DNA of 64,000 nt from positions 11,346,683-11,410,682 of the forward strand of contig OY735212.1 of assembly GCA_963457665.1 (NCBI GenBank), in the 5' to 3' direction. The notes under the pieces are model-generated. The model saw only the letters and a list, made by a program, of their open reading frames with translations, was not told the DNA's origin and did no database searches. The DNA comes from Thysanoteuthis rhombus (taxonomy: Eukaryota > Mollusca > Cephalopoda > Oegopsida > Thysanoteuthidae). Positions within the stretch are counted from its first letter, which is position 1. Each line of letters starts with the position of its first letter. Shown here in pieces: positions 3,548 to 63,417 of this stretch. Made by a program: the position numbers and the translations under genes.

Positions 3548-3995
3548 CATTAGAAACTATCAACCAAGACTGTCAACATAGGTTTCTTCAGATTTTTAAG
3601 CTGGTTTGGCTGGCTATGTATCTACGTATGCATGTATTACACTGGCAACCTGGGTTTATGTACGTATGTATCATACATCGAGACCTCACTAATCAAATAA
3701 GCACGCTGAAAATTTAAACATTTACTCTTTATTATGTCCACAAAAGAAACTTGGGGGGGGGAGTCACTTTGAAATGTAGGTGTATGCCAAATTGATCCCC
3801 CAGATTGTGCCCACTAGTTTTTTGGAAGATTCAGACTTTTTAGTGATCAATGCTCAACAAAATGTGAGCAAATAAACTTATTCATCATTCACCGCTTTTT
3901 CCGATACTTGAATTGATCACCCCCTACTGTGGCATGATGCCAAAAGATGTTGGTCAAGTAACGGTTTCGATTGAGTGATTAACCAGACCATTTCA
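3548..3995 (+). repeat. family A, near-full copy A4
   Basis: The fullest copy, about 450 bp. It starts at AAACTATCAACCAAGACTG and runs through GGTTTCTTCAG, a GGCTGGCTATGTATC block, TTTACTCTTTATTATGTCC, and two GATCACC motifs. It ends near GGTTTCGATTGAGTGATT and AACCAGACC. I used this copy as the reference for the family. Confidence 0.78.
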
Positions 3996-4440: not shown

Positions 4441-4604
4441 AAAGAATCATATCTATAGTGACCAATAATACATCAATTCTGATGCTAAGTCAGCTGTCTT
4501 TACTAGGCCCAATTGCAATAAGTGAAGTTGACTTGCAGGCAACAAGTACCCAAAGTGGAGTCACTCACTTTGCTCTCCATTATTCAACTCATAACTCGGA
4601 GGAG

Positions 4605-4735
4605 TGATCGATTCATGCTTTTTCCAAGAGCATTAGTATGGAGTGAACACCAACTGTCCCAGCCAGAGCTTGAACTCAGCTTGTTTAGTCTATTCCCAGA
4701 ACCACTACCTACCACTCAGTATCACTTATCATTTA
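4605..4735 (-). mobile_element. tRNA-headed SINE fragment (family S)
   Basis: The reverse strand gives a box-B-like GAGTTCAAGCTCTGGC, followed by GTGTTCACTCCATAC and AATGCTCTTGG. The same order occurs in the SINE copies at 7425, 9880 and 41575. The 3' tail seen in those copies is absent here. Confidence 0.65.
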
Positions 4736-4770
4736 TAGAGCCAAATACAATTCATTTATCTTTTGTAGAA

Positions 4771-4944
4771 GTCGAGTCTAATACATATCTAATACATACT
4801 TTTATACAGTCGAGTCTAATACATATCTAATACATACTTTTATACAGTCGAGTCTAATACATATCTAATACATACTTTTATACAGTCGAGTCTAATACAT
4901 ATCTAATACATACTTTTATACAGTTGAGTCTAATACATATTGTT
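4771..4944. repeat. 38-bp minisatellite, about 4.5 units
   Basis: The word GTCGAGTCTAATACATATC recurs at 4771, 4809, 4847 and 4885, with a one-base variant at 4923, giving an exact 38-bp period. Units are nearly identical, so the array is young or homogenised. There are no spacers, so this is a minisatellite. Confidence 0.95.
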
Positions 4945-5159
4945 CATCAAAAACAAAACTGATTAGATAAAACCTTAAAATAGAAAAAAAATTACGGATC
5001 TAAATGGATTTTTGAACTTGAGCAAAATCTATCTCTACAAACACCATAGTTTACAGCTTAGTTACACTGAATTTATTGTGTTCATATCCAAGTTTGTAGA
5101 TCAGTCACAACTTTCTTAATTTACGTACATATCATCAGCATACGTCAGAATACAGTGGA

Positions 5160-7424: not shown

Positions 7425-7722
7425 GGTGACCAATTGGTCAACAGTGTGGAAAACGGACCGAGCAAGTTGAAACTCTGATTGAGACCAGCACTAATGCACT
7501 TCTGAAAGTCATGAATCAGTCCCTCCCTGCCCAAGCTATGAACAGAACAGTGTACGATGAAATTAGTGATGCAACATCATGTGTTTGTCACCTCCAAGTC
7601 TATTTCACATATTGCAAACCTGGAAAGACTAGACGAGGCAGAGAAACTTGTGATACATGTTGTCCGAGCAGGGACAGCTGATGACATAGCCAGTGTAAGG
7701 GCACTGCTCATTTACTTTAAAT
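7425..7722 (+). mobile_element. tRNA-headed SINE, family S, near full length
   Basis: A tRNA-like head carries box-A-like GACCGAGCAAG and box-B-like AGTTGAAACTCTG. The body contains CATGAATCAGTCCCTCCC and CACCTCCAAGTCTATTTC. The tail, GAGCAGGGACAGC..ATAGCCAGTGTAAGGGCACT, also occurs in the 5S-headed copies at 29750 and 36545. About 300 bp, non-coding, presumably pol III derived. Confidence 0.75.
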
Positions 7723-9419: not shown

Positions 9420-9845
9420 CTAATCAAAACTGTCAACATAAGTTTCTTCAGTTTTGAAGTTGGGCTAGCTGGCTATGTATGAATTATGTGTACAGACCAC
9501 ACCACTGGAGCTGGAAATTTAAACTCTTATTCCCCATTACGTCAAGAAAAAACTTTTTTTTTTTGCTCTTTCACCCATTCCTTAGGTTTTAAGTGGGGGT
9601 TCAATTTTCATTGCAAGCTTATGCTAAATTGGTCCCTTATTTTGAGTCCAGCAGTATCCATGCTTTTATTTTTTTCTATTCAGTTCTTTTCACTGATCAC
9701 AGCCCAGCAGATGAAGAGAGATGTAACTTGTTCATTGATTACTTCTTTTTTGAATTTTTTTTAATGGTTACCCCCAACTCAGCATGTTGCCAAAGATGTT
9801 GGTCAATGGACGGTTTCTATAGAGTGACTAATAGGACTTTGTCTT
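9420..9845 (+). repeat. family A, near-full copy A5
   Basis: Begins at AATCAAAACTGTCAACATAA and continues with GTTTCTTCAG, GCTGGCTATGTATG, CACTGGAGCTGGAAATTTAA and GGGGGTTCAATTTTC. It ends with GTTGGTCAATGGACGG and GACTAATAGGACTTTG. The same order is seen in A4. Confidence 0.8.
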
Positions 9846-9877
9846 TTTAATTACTCTCTTATCCCATCAGCCCGGAG

Positions 9878-10158
9878 GAGGTCCAGGGTGACCGAGCGAG
9901 TAACGGCACAACGAGTGGTCAGCGAATCGAGTTCAAACTCGGACTGAGACGGTTTCTGTTCACTCTGAATTTAGTAAGGCATGAATCCCTCTCTCCCGTC
10001 AGCTATGGATGGTGTAAGGCAGGGTGAAGTGGGTGACGTCACTGCAGGTGCTGGTTGCCTCCAAGTCTCATTCACTGAGTACGTGGTAATGTGACATGAA
10101 GTCAAACCAGAGGCCACTGAAGCCGCAGTCAGCGTAAGGGTTCTATTTACTTACCACC
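9878..10158 (+). mobile_element. tRNA-headed SINE, family S, near full length
   Basis: The head has box-A-like GTGACCGAGCGAG and box-B-like GAGTTCAAACTCGG. It is followed by GTTCACTCTG, GGCATGAATCCCTCTC, GCCTCCAAGTCTCATTCACT and a tail of CACTGAAGCCGCAGTCAGCG plus TAAGGG. The gene-like head retains good pol III promoter spacing. It lies 32 bp downstream of family A5. Confidence 0.78.
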
Positions 10159-10955: not shown

Positions 10956-11230
10956 GCTCGGGAAGTGTAATGGTAAGCACGTTTGCCTCACACCCAGAAG
11001 GTCCCAGGTTTGAATCCTGGAACGACCGAAGAGTGTGGAAAACTTTTCATTAGGAGAAATTCTAGCTTTCCCGGGACACACCAGGAAATCCGATTCAAGT
11101 TGCCGAATATCTTAGAAACGTTCGTGACAGAATCAATGGAGATCGTCCTCGGATCATCTGAGGCGATTCGTTTGTCTTTGAATTCATGCCAGTGAAGTGT
11201 TAAAAGAAGATTCGCAAAATCTTGCCTCAA
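10956..11230 (+). mobile_element. tRNA-Val(CAC)-derived SINE, copy V1
   Basis: The first 73 bp fold as a tRNA relic with box-A-like AGTGTAATGGTAAGCACG, an anticodon loop CTCACAC (CAC, valine), and box-B-like GGTTTGAATCC inside a CCAGG/CCTGG T-stem. A non-tRNA body begins GAAGAGTGTGGAAAACTTTT, a word shared with V4 at 44134. The acceptor stem is not closed, so this is a SINE or pseudogene. Confidence 0.7.
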
Positions 11231-21264: not shown

Positions 21265-22032
21265 AGTACCCGCCCCCCGCTTTGGATAGTAATAGATGAA
21301 CAGAATCACTGAACTGGAATCAAAAGCTTGCAACGAACAAAATCAAAAATGCAAAACTTGAGAAAGTAGATCACTACATCTACCTGGGACTACGAATCTC
21401 TATGAAATCCTCAGAAGAAGGAGAAATCAAGTGAAGAATCATTTTAGGTTGTCAAGCTTTCGGTAAATTAATCTCGACTTTCAAGAACAAGAAAGTCATG
21501 CTAGTGATAAAAAGAAGGGTATACAGCCAATGTATCTTTTCGGTAGTTACCTATGGAGCTAAAACATGAAACCTAACCAAAAGACTGGCCCTTGAATTGA
21601 GAACCATGCAACGTGCACAAGAGATAATCATGTTCAACCACACATTGAGAGATCACAAGACAGCACTTTATATTAGAGGAAAACAGGAGCCTAAGATATC
21701 ATAGAATCCATAAGAAAACTTAAATGGCAATGGGCCGGTCATGTTACGAGATTGGTAGACAACCACTGGACATCTACGACTCGCAACGTAGATCCCAAAA
21801 GATCACTTGAGAAACTGGGTCCAATAAAATATAAGATGACGTGACGAACTAGACGAGTTCAGAAAGTACTGTCTCCGTGACGCCCACGATAAAGAGGTCT
21901 GGCAAATCTTGGGGAAGGTCTACATCTAACGACTGACGCTAAAAGGCTGATGATGAAATATTTAACGACGGATCCTTGAAATTGCGGAGCCCGTAGGAAA
22001 TGCTAGCAACTTTTCCCACATTGTTGAAACGG
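21265..22032 (+). mobile_element. RTE-type LINE 3' end, longest copy
   Basis: Conceptual translation in shifting frames shows the order typical of the C-terminal part of RTE-clade ORF2. It runs YIYLGLRIS, then EEGEIK and AFGKL, then VVTYGAKTWNLTKR, then MQRAQE, RDHKTA, KLKWQWAGHV and DELDEFRKY-like words. It is a 5'-truncated dead copy with several stops and frame changes. A GATGATGAAA tail is followed by about 75 bp (TTAACGACGG to TTTTCCCACA) that also occurs, inverted, at 53490-53560. That stretch probably belongs to this LINE subfamily. Confidence 0.85.
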
Positions 22033-22815: not shown

Positions 22816-23225
22816 ATCAAGATAATAACAATGTAGCTAATACTAATAGTGTACGTAAAAAAAATAAATAAATATGGTACCGAAAAATTCACAGAGCGTA
22901 AAGAAAGTATTTAAGGGTTAGATTTGATCTTATGCCAACCCTAAAAGCTCTGGCATCTCAATCAAAGCTTATGGAGATCCTGGGTTGCCAAGACGAAAGA
23001 ATCACCCCTTCGACCTAACTAATGTAGTCCAGAGGGAAACAGAGCATGATGCACCCGGCGTCAGATAGGGCACAGTAGCTCCCGAAAGGATATCAAAATT
23101 GGCATCTAATTGCCTTAGGGGAACTCCACTCCCTGGTTTGGAATCAGTTCTACTTCTCCTAAACTGGTTGCCAACCCATACATAGAAAGCCCAGTCTTCC
23201 CCACTATTTTATCTATAGCTGTGGG
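22816..23225. other. intergenic, nothing recognised
   Basis: No feature supported. Confidence 0.5.
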
Positions 23226-23295
23226 GGAGAATATATAAATTCATGACTTTACCAAGGGCATTAGTACAAAGTGAACGCCACTCGCCGCTGTTTCA
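23226..23295 (-). mobile_element. SINE family S, small fragment
   Basis: TTTACCAAGGGCATTAGTAC and AAAGTGAACGCCA match the segment after the head in the minus-strand S copies at 4605 and 41575. Confidence 0.5.
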
Positions 23296-24334
23296 GGCAT
23301 TATCGTATAGATGAGGTTTTAGTAGTTACCTTTCACTGGCAAAAGCATCTGCCGTCCCTGCGCGGGTTTTACAAATCACAAGAAGATCGTACTCGAACCT
23401 GTACGTACAAGGTGATTTAGTCACGAACGTTAACTCAGTAAAATCTCCATTTCTTACAGATGAAGATTAAACTCGAAAAATGTTAAGTATGTTTACATTA
23501 CCATGTTGTCGACAATCAGACATGTTTTTTAACCAACAGATAGTACAGGGTGCCATACCTGTAAAAAAAAAGAAAGAAAAACTATTAGAAGAAGAAAAGC
23601 TTGTGAACAATTAATTTATAAAAATGGTCTGCTACCTAGGACAGGCCGAGCAGGGTTCCTAGCGCCCTGAGCTAGCTAAATTACGTTTCCCTTTAAAGTA
23701 TAGTATTAACCTGAAATATTTATTTGAAAATCTGACTTCGCGTCTGTTAATCTACCTTCTTTGACTGTTTAAAGAGTTTGATTTGTTCATTCTCCCATTG
23801 TTCTATTTGTAAAGTTCTATTGTATCAGACATATGAGAGGCGCTATTTAGCATTTGGCGCCCAGGGCGACTGCCCATGTTGCCAGTACCTTGGGAAGGTT
23901 TATGTGCTACCCAATAGTTTGGGGAACATATGACACGAAATGGCTTCCCCAGAGAAAGAAAAAAATGAGGTTCTGTATTTCCTGGTAGAGTGACTTGGAC
24001 AGAAGTATACAAGGTTCGACGAGACACGGAAATGCCAGCGAACATGGTAGACGGATAGTTCCATCAATATCTTCGAATTCCTGGATTTTTCGCGTTTCAC
24101 CTTCTATACACACACACGTTTGTGATTAAATATACTTATTTGAATCATATGTATTTAGGCAGCAGTCCTTAATTTAAACAAGTTTGATTGAAAGCAGCGC
24201 ACACGATTTTTTCAATACTTAGTTACCTTTTCTTATAAATGTATGAGAAAATACGCACACGAACACACTGAGTGGTAATTACATATCCAATACCGAATGT
24301 GTATGGTCTTGGGACCAAATTCAATAACTTATAT
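23296..24334. other. intergenic, nothing recognised
   Basis: A GGCGCCCAGGGCGACTGCCC word near 23857 hints at an F-like element. Otherwise unassigned. Confidence 0.45.
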
Positions 24335-29159: not shown

Positions 29160-29498
29160 TCGTCATGGAGAGATCACAAGACAGCACAGTATGTATATAA
29201 GGAAGAAAACAGGAGTCAGAGACATCATAGAATCTATTAGAAAACTTGAATGGCAATGGGCAGGCCATGTTGCAAGAATGACAGACAACCGATGGACATT
29301 ATGACTCACAGTATGGATCTCCAGAGATCACATGCGAAACCGAGGCTGACGGAATACAAGATCGAGAGATGAACTAGATGAATTTAGAAAATACTGGCTC
29401 CATGATGACCACGATAAAGTGTGGCGAATCCTGGGGAAGGTCTATGTCCAACGAGTGACGTTAAAAGACTGATAATGATGATGATGATGATGATAGGT
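29160..29498 (+). mobile_element. RTE-type LINE 3' end, short-tail subfamily
   Basis: GGAGAGATCACAAGACAGCA, GAATGGCAATGGGCAGGCC and GGCGAATCCTGGGGAAGG correspond to the RDHKTAQY, WQWAGH and RILGKVY segments of RTE-clade ORF2. It ends in TTAAAAGACTGATAATGATG plus further ATG triplets, a classic RTE tail. It is 5'-truncated and its frames are broken. Confidence 0.88.
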
Positions 29499-29749: not shown

Positions 29750-30030
29750 TAGCAGAAGCCAAATCCCGTCAGGTAAACCAGTTTTTGTATGATCTACGAA
29801 GTTAAGCAACATCGAGCCAGGTCTGTACTTAGATCGGTGAGCAATTGTGGAAACTAGGTGCCGTAAGCGAAAAAGGTGATATGAGAGACACCACTTCGGG
29901 AACTTGTCGCATATTGCAAATGTAATAAGGGATAGAAGCATATCGTAAAACTTGTAATATGGATGGGAAGCCCGAGCAGGGACGATTGATGCTGTAGCCA
30001 GCGTAAGGACACTAGCTGGTAAGCAATAAA
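29750..30030 (+). mobile_element. 5S rRNA-derived SINE
   Basis: About 29791-29868 is clearly related to 5S rRNA. It has CGAAGTTAAGCAACATCGAG, then CTGTACTTAGATCGGTGAGC (the internal control region and helix IV side) and AGGTGCCGTAAG. A non-5S body follows with CATATTGCAAATG, AAAACTTGTAATATGG and a tail GAGCAGGGACGATTG..TAGCCAGCGTAAGGACAC. The tail matches the tRNA-headed SINE at 7425. 5S-headed SINEs (SINE3 type) are known in other animals, and such a head would supply a pol III type-1 promoter. Confidence 0.82.
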
Positions 30031-30144: not shown

Positions 30145-30388
30145 GGGCGTCCAGTTTGCTATAAGAGTCAATGCTAAATCAGTCCCTTAGTTCGACAGCG
30201 TCCACGCTTGTTTATAAGAACATTTCTTCAATGATTACCGCTTAACAAAAAGCAAGAGAGGCAATTTATTAATTGATCGCCCCTTTTTTCCATTTTTTTT
30301 ATTAGATCACCCCCAATACGGTATGCTGCCAAGAGATGTTAGTCATGTGACGGTTTCTGCTGAGTAACTGAACAGACCTGTTCCTTTT
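30145..30388 (+). repeat. family A, partial copy A7
   Basis: Right part of family A: GTCAATGCTAAATCAGTCCC, ATTGATCGCCCC, GATCACCCCCAATACGG, then GTTAGTCATGTGACGG and GAGTAACTGAACAGACC plus TGTT. Confidence 0.75.
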
Positions 30389-35379: not shown

Positions 35380-35760
35380 TGGTCACCAATGGAGCTGAAA
35401 CATGGAACTCAACTTGACCCCCAAGCCGAGAACCATACAACGTGTACTCGATAAAATCATGCTCGACCTCACATGGAGAGATCGTAAGACACCATAGTAT
35501 ATTAGAGAGAAGACGGGAGTCCAAGATATCATTGAAATCACTGGAAAACTCAACTGGTAATGGGCTAGACATATTGCAAGAATGTCAGACAACCGTTGGA
35601 CATTGCAACTCACAGCGTATGCGAAATTCTGGCCGACCGGAAGTAAGATGTCGTGATGAACTAAACAAATTTAGATAACACTGGATCCACGACGCCCACG
35701 TTAGAGAGGTCTGACGAATCTTGTAGAAGGTCCCTGTCCGGTGATGATGAAGATGGACTT
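35380..35760 (+). mobile_element. RTE-type LINE 3' end
   Basis: Starts near CAATGGAGCTGAAACATGG (the YGAETWN segment) and continues through ACATGGAGAGATCGTAAGAC, GGTAATGGGCTAGACATATT and the FR..H segment to a GGTGATGATGAAGATGG tail. 5'-truncated, with broken frames. Confidence 0.85.
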
Positions 35761-36544: not shown

Positions 36545-36872
36545 GTTATCCAATGCAAGATAAAAGCCCAGTCTCACGGGTAGAACTGACAAGCTATCGA
36601 TCCCAATACAAAGGATATTCTGTTGTGTTTGTTCTAAAAGCAACGTCGAGCCTAGTCAGTACATAGATTAGTGGACACTTAGGAATACCAGGTTCCTCGA
36701 GTGAGAATAGTGATTTAAGTGAAGTAACTTCGGATGCTCGTTGACTCTATTTCACGCATCGTAAGCCGAGAAAAGGGGAACTTGTAATATGGGCGGGGAC
36801 AGGGCGGACAGGGACGGATGATTCTGTTGCCAGAGTAAGAGCACGAGCTAGGAATCGAACTTGCCATAAAAC
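36545..36872 (+). mobile_element. 5S rRNA-derived SINE, second copy
   Basis: The 5S part at about 36636-36697 reads AAGCAACGTCGAGCCTAGTC, AGTACATAGATTAGTGG and AGGAATACCAGGTTCC. The body and tail AACTTGTAATATGGGCGGGG, CAGGGACGGATGATTCTG and TTGCCAGAGTAAGAGCAC match the copy at 29750. A 90-bp leader before the 5S part also appears repeat-derived. Confidence 0.78.
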
Positions 36873-41574: not shown

Positions 41575-41785
41575 CGTAATTAGGCAGTGCCCTTACACTG
41601 GCAGCTGCTTCAGTCGTCCACACTTGGTTGTCACTTACTTAACCCTGTTGATACTCATTCCATACCTTTTCCAAGGGTATTAGTGTAAAATGAACGCAAA
41701 TTGTTAGAGCCAGAGTTTGAACCTCAACTCATTGAGTCCATTCCTCGTACCGATGACTGCACCGCTACGTCATACCTCCTTCACG
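41575..41785 (-). mobile_element. tRNA-headed SINE, family S, internally deleted
   Basis: The reverse strand has a tRNA-like GCGGTGCAGTCATCGG..GAGTTGAGGTTCAAACTC head, then GCGTTCATTTTACAC and CCTTGGAAAAGG. It ends with the family tail GACTGAAGCAGCTGCCAGTG plus TAAGGGCAC. The middle is shorter than in copies 7425 and 9878. Confidence 0.75.
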
Positions 41786-42501: not shown

Positions 42502-42559
42502 TACTTTTCTTAAGAGTACTCAAGTGCCATTACCCTGACTAAACTATTTTTCCGTTAGT

Positions 42560-53414: not shown

Positions 53415-54032
53415 CTCTCATCATCATCATCATCATCAGTCTTTTAACGTCCGTCGTTGGACATAGACCTTCTCTAGGATTCGCCACAATTATGTGGGAA
53501 AAGTTGCTAGCATTTCCTACGGGTTCCGCAATTTCAAGGATACGTCGTTAAATATTTCATCATCAGCCTTTTAGCGTCAGTCGTTAGATGTAGACCTTCC
53601 CCAAGATTTGCCAGACCTCTTTATCGTGGGCGTCACGGAGACAGTACTTTCTGAGCTCGTCTAGCTCGTCTCTCCATCTTGTGTTCTGTTGGCCTCGGTT
53701 TCTTATGTGATCTCTGGGGATCCATGTTTCAAGACGTGATGTCCATCGGTTGTCTTCCATTCTTGCAACATGGCCTGCCCATTGCCATTTGAGTTTTTTA
53801 ATGTTTCTGAGATGTCACAGACACCCGTTTTCTTCCTTATATACTGTGCTGTCTTGTGATCTCTCCATGTGAGGTTGAGCATGATTCTCTCATACGCACG
53901 TTGCATACTTCTCAGTTTGCAGGTCTGTCTCTTGATTAGATTCCATGTTTCAGCTCCATAAGTGACTACCGGGAGAATGCATTGGTTGTATACTCTTCTT
54001 TTTAGGATTATTGGGATCATCCGGATCATCTG
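53415..54032 (-). mobile_element. compound RTE-type LINE 3' end (two tails)
   Basis: From right to left on the minus strand, the translation shows RRVYNQCILPVVTYGAETWN, MQRAYERIMLNLTWRDHKTA and an IRKKTGVCDI segment, then WQ-type words and the terminal region. A first GATGATGAAA tail (about 53558) and 70 bp of subfamily sequence follow. A second short LINE end (GGCGAATCCTAGAGAAGG to TTAAAAGACTGATGATGATG) then finishes the unit. So one LINE 3' end is fused to a piece of another subfamily. Frames are broken. Confidence 0.85.
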
Positions 54033-54587
54033 GTTTCTGAAAGGTGCAACTCTCAGGAGACATTAACCCTAGTGAAGTTCCAACATGAGGGCTTATTGAC
54101 CTACGATAATGGGAGTTATGTTTCATTGGCATTTTCGGATAGTGGCACCCGTTTCATATGAAACTGTTTATTTGAAGTTGTTTTGGATTGATCAGAATTG
54201 CTTCTGATATTTCAATTATTTTCTATGTTATAAAAGATATCAAAGAATTTTTAGTTGTTTTTTCGATGAGAGGCGATTGCGTTTTTGTCTTAGATGTTGA
54301 CAAATAGAGCTATTGCCTGATAGGAGGCATAACACAGCGAATCAAATAGAATTACATCTTAGTTACGTTATTTCAGGTTGTACCAAGACGAGATATCATA
54401 AATACCGTTAAAAATCGAATATAGAGACGAATGACGTTTAAACCAACCTTGACAAAGACAAAAGATAGTCGAAAGTACTCAGTACAAAAAATTTTAAGAT
54501 AATACATTAATTTCGGTAAATTCTAACACCCCTTCAAACCGGCTATAAGACATAACATCAGAGAAGTCGAAAGAACCTAGAAACAAA

Positions 54588-60369: not shown

Positions 60370-60835
60370 TATCATCATCATCATCAGTCTTTTCATGTCC
60401 GTTGTTGAATATACATCTTCCTCAGGATTCGCTACACTTTACTATCATAGGTATCATGGAGCAAGTACCTTCTTAATTTGTTTAGTTCGTTTCTCCATCT
60501 TGTATTCTGCCGGCCTTGATTGCGCATGTGATCTTTGGGAATCCATGATGTGAGTCGTATTGTTCATCGGTTGCTATCTTTGCAACATGACCAGCCCATT
60601 GCCATTTGAGTTTTTTAATGGATTCTATGATGTCTCGGACTCCTGTTTTCTCCCTGATATATTGTGCAGACTTGTGGTTTCTCCACGTGAGATTGAACAT
60701 AATCCCTTTATGTACACGCTGCATGCTTCTCAGTTTACAGTTCTGTCCCTTGGTCAGGTTCTATGTTTCAGCTCTATCAGTGACTATCAAAAATATGCAT
60801 TGGTTGTATGCCCTTCTTTATAGATACAAAAACAT
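60370..60835 (-). mobile_element. RTE-type LINE 3' end
   Basis: On the minus strand the translation includes MQRVHKGIMFNLTWRNHKSA, QYIREKTGVRDIIESIKKLK and WQWAGHVAKI, typical for the region downstream of the RTE reverse transcriptase. The tail is (ATG)n at 60374-60386. The minus frame stays open for 80 codons (60724-60482), so it is one of the better kept copies. It is 5'-truncated. Confidence 0.88.
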
Positions 60836-63039: not shown

Positions 63040-63150
63040 CAGAGAATGCCTATCCAGCCGGTTACGGCACCTAGCATTTCCAGGTCACCCATCTAGGTAC
63101 TGATCTGGCTTGACGTTGCTAAACTTCGTACGGGAACCAGTATATCTATT
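63040..63150 (-). pseudogene. 5S rRNA-derived block (pseudogene or SINE head)
   Basis: The reverse strand reads CGAAGTTTAGCAACGTCAAG, CAGATCAGTACCTAGATGGG, TGACCTGGAAATGCTAGG and TGCCGTAA. This covers the 3' two thirds of 5S rRNA and is closer to the canonical gene than the copies at 29750 and 36545. The 5' part (first helix) is lost. Confidence 0.75.
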
Positions 63151-63417
63151 GCGATTTGGCCGTGACCGTTTCAAATGCGATTTGGCCTGAACAGAATTCT
63201 ATACCTGTTATAATTAGATATTCACGCCATGTTTCAGGAACGGTATGAAAAAGCAATCAATGGATTTGTTATGACTTGTTTGGCGTGCGTCTTTGATTTC
63301 AGGAATAAATTACGATCGTTTGCGTGTCAAACTGCAACACTTAGGGAAAGAATAAGACTGACTGCTGCAGGGTCAAACTCAACTCCTACTTCTATTCCGA
63401 TTGAAAACTGCAACCTT
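63151..63417. other. unassigned
   Basis: No feature supported. Confidence 0.4.

Follow-up and report, generated by a model that had tools for sequence, protein, structure and literature searches.

5S rRNA-derived and tRNA-like SINE heads on a common body and tail in the squid Thysanoteuthis rhombus

The 64-kb stretch of Thysanoteuthis rhombus DNA analysed here (the window) contains copies of short interspersed elements (SINEs) of two classes, which differ at the front and agree at the back (Table 1). Copies A and B begin with a head derived from 5S rRNA; copies C, D, E and H begin with a tRNA-like head that is followed by a linker of about 80 bp. Body and tail, together about 140 bp, are common to both head classes and start at the same base, directly 3' of the 5S part. 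The boundaries of all window copies were set by alignment to consensi derived from the genome, and in these alignments all five copies named in the original prediction (A to E) proved to be real.

Table 1 Parts of SINE copies recognised in the window
Feature	Positions	Strand	Description
Copy A head	29758..29868	+	5S rRNA-derived; 91/111 aligned positions identical to the 5S-class consensus
Copy A body and tail	29869..30017	+	112/138 identical to the 5S-class consensus
Copy B head	36606..36696	+	Degenerate, 5S-derived; 69/87 identical to the genome-derived consensus
Copy B body and tail	36703..36851	+	113/143 identical to the genome-derived consensus
Copy C head and linker	7425..7552	+	tRNA-like; 93/125 identical to the tRNA-class consensus
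Copy C body and tail	7558..7714	+	Closer to the 5S-class body than to the tRNA-class body
Copy D head and linker	9877..10008	+	tRNA-like; 105/132 identical to the genome-derived consensus
Copy D body and tail	10023..10153	+	102/131 identical to the genome-derived consensus
Copy E head and linker	41657..41779	-	tRNA-like; 91/121 identical to the genome-derived consensus
Copy E tail	41577..41619	-	31/39 identical at 41619-41581; most of the body gone
Copy H head and linker	4575..4710	-	tRNA-like; 109/136 identical; a further copy, absent from the original prediction
Copy H first half of body	4500..4570	-	61/71 identical; tail degenerate
Piece I body and tail	23320..23420	-	Head not recognisable; absent from the original prediction
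tRNA-class linker of a second element	23202..23276	-	61/71 identical; runs on into the delta body
5S-derived head without the shared body	63062..63163	-	85/102 identical to the 5S-class head; other sequence downstream

Comparisons within the window connect the copies across the two classes. Self-BLAST aligned A with B (E = 3.5e-19) and C with D (E = 1.5e-10) and H (E = 7.5e-12), and also A with C (E = 1.4e-7). The tail pattern TAGCCAGCGTAAGGGCAC, allowing up to 3 mismatches, has 5 matches in the window against a mean of 0.01 in shuffles; four lie within copies A, B, C and E (in E at 41587-41604) and one (42524-42541) lies outside the recognised copies. The block CCGAGCAGGGACGG is matched 6 times, where shuffles lead one to expect 0.70 and give 5 at most; four of these matches are within A, B, C and piece I and two (13880 and 29559) outside recognised copies. 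A profile of the tRNA class made from C, D, H and E only matches copy A at 29873-30016 (E = 9.9e-13) and copy B at 36707-36845 (E = 6.7e-10), and both matches begin at model position 161. Conversely, a profile of A and B matches C, I, D, E and H (E = 5e-11 to 2.7e-3), beginning at model position 172-174 in C, I, D and H; copy E is without most of the body. The 5S-class profile likewise matches copy D at 10021-10149 (E = 3.6e-5) and piece I over 23451-23323 (E = 3.8e-6). Given these profile boundaries and a 5S part that ends at about 29868, the similarity between the two classes extends from a single junction to the end. Pairwise comparisons against 300 shuffles were less uniform: the observed score was reached by 153 shuffles for the middle piece of A against E, 299 against I, 10 against D and 4 against C; for the middle piece of B, by 92 against E, 149 against I and 3 against H; and for the tails, by 59 for A against H, 25 for B against D and 89 for B against H. 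The unfavourable pairs involve E, H and the segment used for I, which are without much of the piece, and D, which is simply diverged.

The 5S-derived head is identified by homology to 5S rRNA in Rfam, as in SINE3-type elements. Candidate boxes A, IE and C of the internal promoter match the patterns of these boxes at 20/21, 16/20 and 21/23 positions in copy A and at 15, 14 and 17 positions in copy B. Taken alone, the head of copy A scores 18.8 bits with the Rfam 5S model, under the gathering score, and copy B gives no match to this model. The sole 5S match in the window-wide Rfam scan is at 63167-63059 (-), where a score of 38.2 bits passes the cut-off; the heads of A (E = 7e-12) and B (E = 1.6e-4) both match part of this sequence (63130-63059). 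Among 20 genomic loci (L003-L022), 16 reach the Rfam 5S gathering score over model positions 1-120, with L006, L010, L020 and L022 below it, and the 5S-class consensus (22 loci and copy B) carries a complete 5S. The identity of the tRNA-like head is weaker than that of the 5S head and rests on box-A/box-B-like motifs, which D and E possess, C and H show in poorer form, and the consensus shows on inspection by eye. ARAGORN reported no tRNA in the window, and Rfam found none in copy D. Elsewhere in the window, at 10956-11028 (+), there is an Rfam tRNA-like match of 35.7 bits (gathering score 29) that ARAGORN does not report and that may head another SINE.

The two class consensi, both read off by eye, are about 270-305 bp long; with 357 exact tail matches in the genome, they describe a short, dispersed, multi-copy unit, as a SINE should be. 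Past the junction, identity covers 120 of the 136 aligned positions and 57 of the first 60, where the three differences are all T/C. Head against head, the consensi have no similarity above that of shuffles (their score is equalled or exceeded in 311 of 500 shuffles). The back module ends near GTAAGGGCACTA and a short tetranucleotide run. The 3' ends of the classes are unlike (GCTAGCTA versus CTTACTTA), and the two classes may therefore use slightly different ends. The original prediction had placed a common tail behind both heads and was to fall if the tails proved unrelated. The tails are related, as the consensi demonstrate; what changes is the extent of the common part, which takes in a body and tail of about 140 bp and not the tail only.

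The genome searched is a 2.73-Gb assembly of 514 contigs that includes the window. With copy A as the query, 40 of 656 candidates were scored and 44 places listed, 32 of which are covered by 28 loci (L002-L029; L002 is copy A itself). The tRNA-class 3' part (E ≤ 0.01) is present in 23 of the 28, beginning at model position 157-163 in 22 of them and at 170 in L007; the remaining five (L009, L014, L018, L025 and L027) have a 5S head without it. With copy H as the query, 40 of 1063 candidates were scored, 41 places listed and 20 loci read (L050-L069); these, with C, D and H, yielded the tRNA-class consensus. A chance insertion of 5S sequence into one tRNA-headed copy, the other finding that would have told against the prediction, is incompatible with the 22 loci that share a common start. 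Insertion into a single copy is ruled out by the multiple genomic loci, the 5S-class consensus and the reads of tail loci.

We counted 357 exact matches to the tail pattern TAGCCAGYRTAAGGGCACTA in the genome and none to its reverse. We drew 20 of these loci blind to the head (taking one place in five, in order, from the first 100 listed), counting a head when its score exceeded the best of 100 shuffles. The draw contains 11 tRNA heads, 4 5S heads and 5 loci without a recognisable head, with L100 called tRNA-headed from a partial linker match and L104 called 5S-headed from its first 35 bases; none of the 20 lacks the second half of the body. In a systematic sample of twenty 10-kb stretches from five contigs there were 8 tRNA-class and 3 5S-class profile matches. 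These matches, none of which has a 5S head, are too few for an estimate of copy number. The reversed control of this sample and the window gave no profile match. Exact-pattern scans of viral contigs gave 0, 0 and 1 matches; the single match (L001) is located in a G+C-rich stretch in which inspection by eye revealed nothing of a SINE, and we regard it as a 17-base coincidence. Together, the profile matches, the pattern shuffles and the controls with reversed sequences and patterns rule out chance similarity. The genome consensi and locus reads support the proposal that two head types of one lineage stand side by side in the window. As in the HaSE1/HaSE3 type, 5S-headed and tRNA-headed families with a common body and tail occur in one genome.

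To relate the two classes, bodies were scored against the consensus body of each. The 5S-class body is the better match for all 20 5S-class loci and for A and B, and the tRNA-class body for 17 of 20 tRNA-class loci; the other three (L059, L060 and L067) score higher against the 5S-class body. In the window, D and H prefer the tRNA-class body and E is undecided. The tRNA-headed copy C scores 149 against the 5S-class body and 127 against the tRNA-class body, in agreement with the tree and with the initial pairing of the copies at 7425 and 29750. On an unrooted, weakly supported tree of 73 copies (39 5S, 34 tRNA; 148 columns; no starred branch), of which 58 are window copies or were picked by similarity to A, H or the 5S-class tail, the head label changes 3 times, compared with a mean of 24.5 for shuffled labels and with none of 500 shuffles as low; the clustering is favoured by the selection of most rows for their similarity to A or H. 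The tree does not include window pieces E and I, the loci with tandem units (L029 and L081), the partial locus L017 or the headless loci. The tRNA-headed copies C, L067, L105, L109 and L060 cluster with 5S-headed copies on this weakly supported tree, a grouping that a 5S class derived from a tRNA-headed subfamily would produce. The simplest reading of these sequences would be a single exchange, in which the 5S class was born from such a subfamily.

Both classes bear the marks of retroposition. In the 30 copies with both ends, flanking direct repeats (8-16 bp) have a mean score of 3.63, compared with 1.77 for permuted ends (largest of 100 permutations, 2.53), and 5 of the 30 copies score at least 7, compared with 0.93 expected (largest permuted, 4). 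The four best duplications are 11-16 bp long with 1-2 mismatches; a score of at least 9 is reached in only 1 of 30 copies, and single cases are weak. A looser test without position limits was unconvincing: a score of at least 9 came up once in 46 copies and three times in 200 random pairs. An earlier test, on seven copies of the window, was weak; C alone stood out, with 5 of 150 random pairs doing as well. Copy C (7425-7714) is flanked by a possible 11-bp target-site duplication, TGATAGATTTT/TGATAAATTTT. The excess of target-site duplications indicates that both classes are retroposed units.

The common module, the common junction, the dissimilar heads, the amplification of both classes and the excess of duplications are direct observations. 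They are best read, and we consider this reading likely, as old copies of one modular SINE lineage, with a back module of about 140 bp that came to stand under two kinds of Pol III promoter, probably through a template switch. The module would be carried either by a tRNA-derived head and its linker or by a complete 5S rRNA-derived head. A reverse transcriptase copying the RNA of a tRNA-headed SINE may have jumped to a 5S rRNA template where the body begins, and the resulting 5S chimera would then have been amplified as a separate family. The tRNA head would thus have come first, both heads would be transcribed by Pol III, and a LINE that recognises the tail would presumably mobilise both classes. 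We infer an exchange of heads, instead of two joinings to one LINE 3' end.

The reverse direction, in which the 5S-headed class is the older and the tRNA head was gained later, appears unlikely. The direction is not fixed by the unrooted, weakly supported tree. However, the tRNA class is the more diverged from its own consensus (K2P 0.217, compared with 0.186 for the 5S class; 20 copies each) and tRNA heads are the commoner in the head-blind draw (11 versus 4), both of which are no more than indirect signs of age. Divergence on this scale implies that the elements of both classes are old.

It is improbable, too, that the common back half reflects a LINE to whose 3' end the two heads were joined separately, with no exchange of heads. 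A LINE-derived module would suit the identical start base of the shared part in both classes, and copies that begin inside the body do exist (L077, L078 and L083). The search for the LINE was shallow, covering 230-360 bp upstream of 40 tail loci, and no partner LINE was recognised there. However, a SINE head is present in 29 of these 40 loci, and the 11 headless ones have no upstream sequence in common (226-315 bp each, E 0.01), which is expected of random truncation and not of one LINE 3' end. For the tail query, 40 of 1525 candidates were scored and 20 read, comprising 14 5S-headed, 0 tRNA-headed and 6 headless loci, a composition biased to the 5S class because the query includes a 5S-class stretch. 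A pattern with four GCTA-type repeats has no exact match, and the translated upstream sequence of a tail-only piece (L043) shows no reverse transcriptase by eye. The occurrence of the 5S-class body under tRNA heads (C and L067; L105 and L109 on the tree) is also explained more simply by a single lineage.

The window contains LINE-like fragments, putatively of the RTE type; Pfam found nothing above its cut-offs in nine window open reading frames. LINE-like 3' ends with a GATGAT run lie at 53423-54062 (-), with relatives near 21508-22026, 29193-29490, 35416-35615 and 60371-60823; by eye, the 5S-headed locus L086 adjoins one GATGAT-type end. The upstream sequences of some headless loci match other dispersed or simple repeats. 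For example, what precedes the headless tail in L099 is similar to a dispersed repeat that recurs in the window (56163-55993 and five other places) and that many sampled stretches also contain.

Two further explanations are very improbable. The first is that the 5S-bearing copies are not SINEs but elements of LTR type (TRIMs with Pol III promoters, such as Ajax or Helenus). PMC10886601 describes elements whose LTRs contain 5S or tRNA sequence. Some copies might be solo LTRs, and the duplication scans covered lengths of at least 6 bp or of 8-16 bp, above the 4-5 bp range of such elements; however, more than one 5S unit occurs in just two of 28 loci (L023 and L029), within about 0.5-1.5 kb per side, the other 26 having a single 5S unit and not two LTRs each with small-RNA sequence, and flanking duplications of 9-16 bp are in excess. 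The second, that two unrelated SINE families end by chance in the same short LINE-recognised tail, is refuted in that form: short tails are common to many SINEs, but the common part here is about 140 bp long, the consensi are nearly identical at its start (57/60) and the profiles cross-match throughout the body.

Heads and bodies are mixed beyond the two main classes. A 5S head stands on a different body that is common to L009 and L014 (69.7% over 109 bp, E = 2e-12), and the sequence downstream of the head at 63163-63062 in the window weakly resembles that of L018 (E = 0.014). Some tRNA-class matches end at the junction and are followed by another body, delta, as at 23276-23202 in the window and in L042, L045 and L049. 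In this small set, the delta body of L042 matches that of the window element with 77.8% identity over 81 bp (E = 3e-12), that of a second element in L009 matches L045 (E = 3e-15) and L042 matches L049 (E = 1e-6). We tentatively suggest that these are cells of a grid of swappable SINE parts, in which two or more heads (5S; tRNA and linker) are joined, near one place, to three or more bodies, although we would lean slightly against so general a scheme of repeated exchange at one junction. Such exchange might be favoured by a structure in the body that pauses the reverse transcriptase. If the grid is real, type 1 and type 2 Pol III promoters would compete over the same retrotransposition module.

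Other repeats and arrangements were also noted; a pattern for a cephalopod repeat had 0 matches. Part of the sequence downstream of the head in L018 recurs in the window at 62588-62515, as if split by about 400 bp. At 23420-23202 (-), one SINE tail directly abuts the linker of another SINE with a different body. Locus L029 (G000:C47:20331500-20333100) consists of a 5S head and part of the body in tandem, in four units about 127 bp apart, and L081 has two head-to-tail units by eye, so that the two form SINE-derived tandem arrays. Another dispersed repeat is represented by 19694-19440 (-) in the window, which matches 277 positions downstream of the 5S part of L027 (66.4%, E = 7e-28). A 38-bp tandem repeat (4732-4959) adjoins copy H, and an 86-bp dispersed repeat has four copies of at least 60% identity (1517-1602, 3838-3923, 9688-9773 and 30226-30311), some with TTGATCACCCC-like ends.

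In DeuSINEs and AmnSINE1, one central domain occurs under 5S-type or tRNA-type heads. A search of the text of the literature for the 16-base tail returned no paper; figures lay outside the search, so publication elsewhere is possible. Because both classes have a common module that should be recognised for retrotransposition, the promoter would be the more direct explanation of any difference between them in copy number or age. The donor of the exchange becomes testable through the tRNA-headed subfamily closest to the 5S class, represented in the window by the copy at 7425.

Several known elements resemble those of the squid. Helenus and Ajax (PMC10886601) similarly have tRNA or 5S sequences in short non-autonomous elements; they have two LTRs, whereas a single 5S unit is present in 26 of 28 loci here. 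In Lepidoptera, the 5S-derived PxSE4 and the tRNA-derived ObSE2 have high mutual identity according to PMC8010984, but they belong to different moth species, whereas both squid classes are in one genome. The closest likeness is to Helicoverpa armigera, in which, as PMC3272025 describes, the 5S-derived HaSE3 has a body and tail in common with the tRNA-derived HaSE1, and template switching was proposed. There the tail matches a known LINE, HaRTE1.1 (PMC3272025), whereas no LINE was recognised in the 230-360 bp upstream of 40 squid tail loci. Compared by description, the two systems are alike in having both heads on one body and tail in one genome. Given the moth precedents, the kind of element is already known and the squid elements are a new case of it: beside the moths, another clear example of 5S and tRNA promoters on one SINE body within a single genome.
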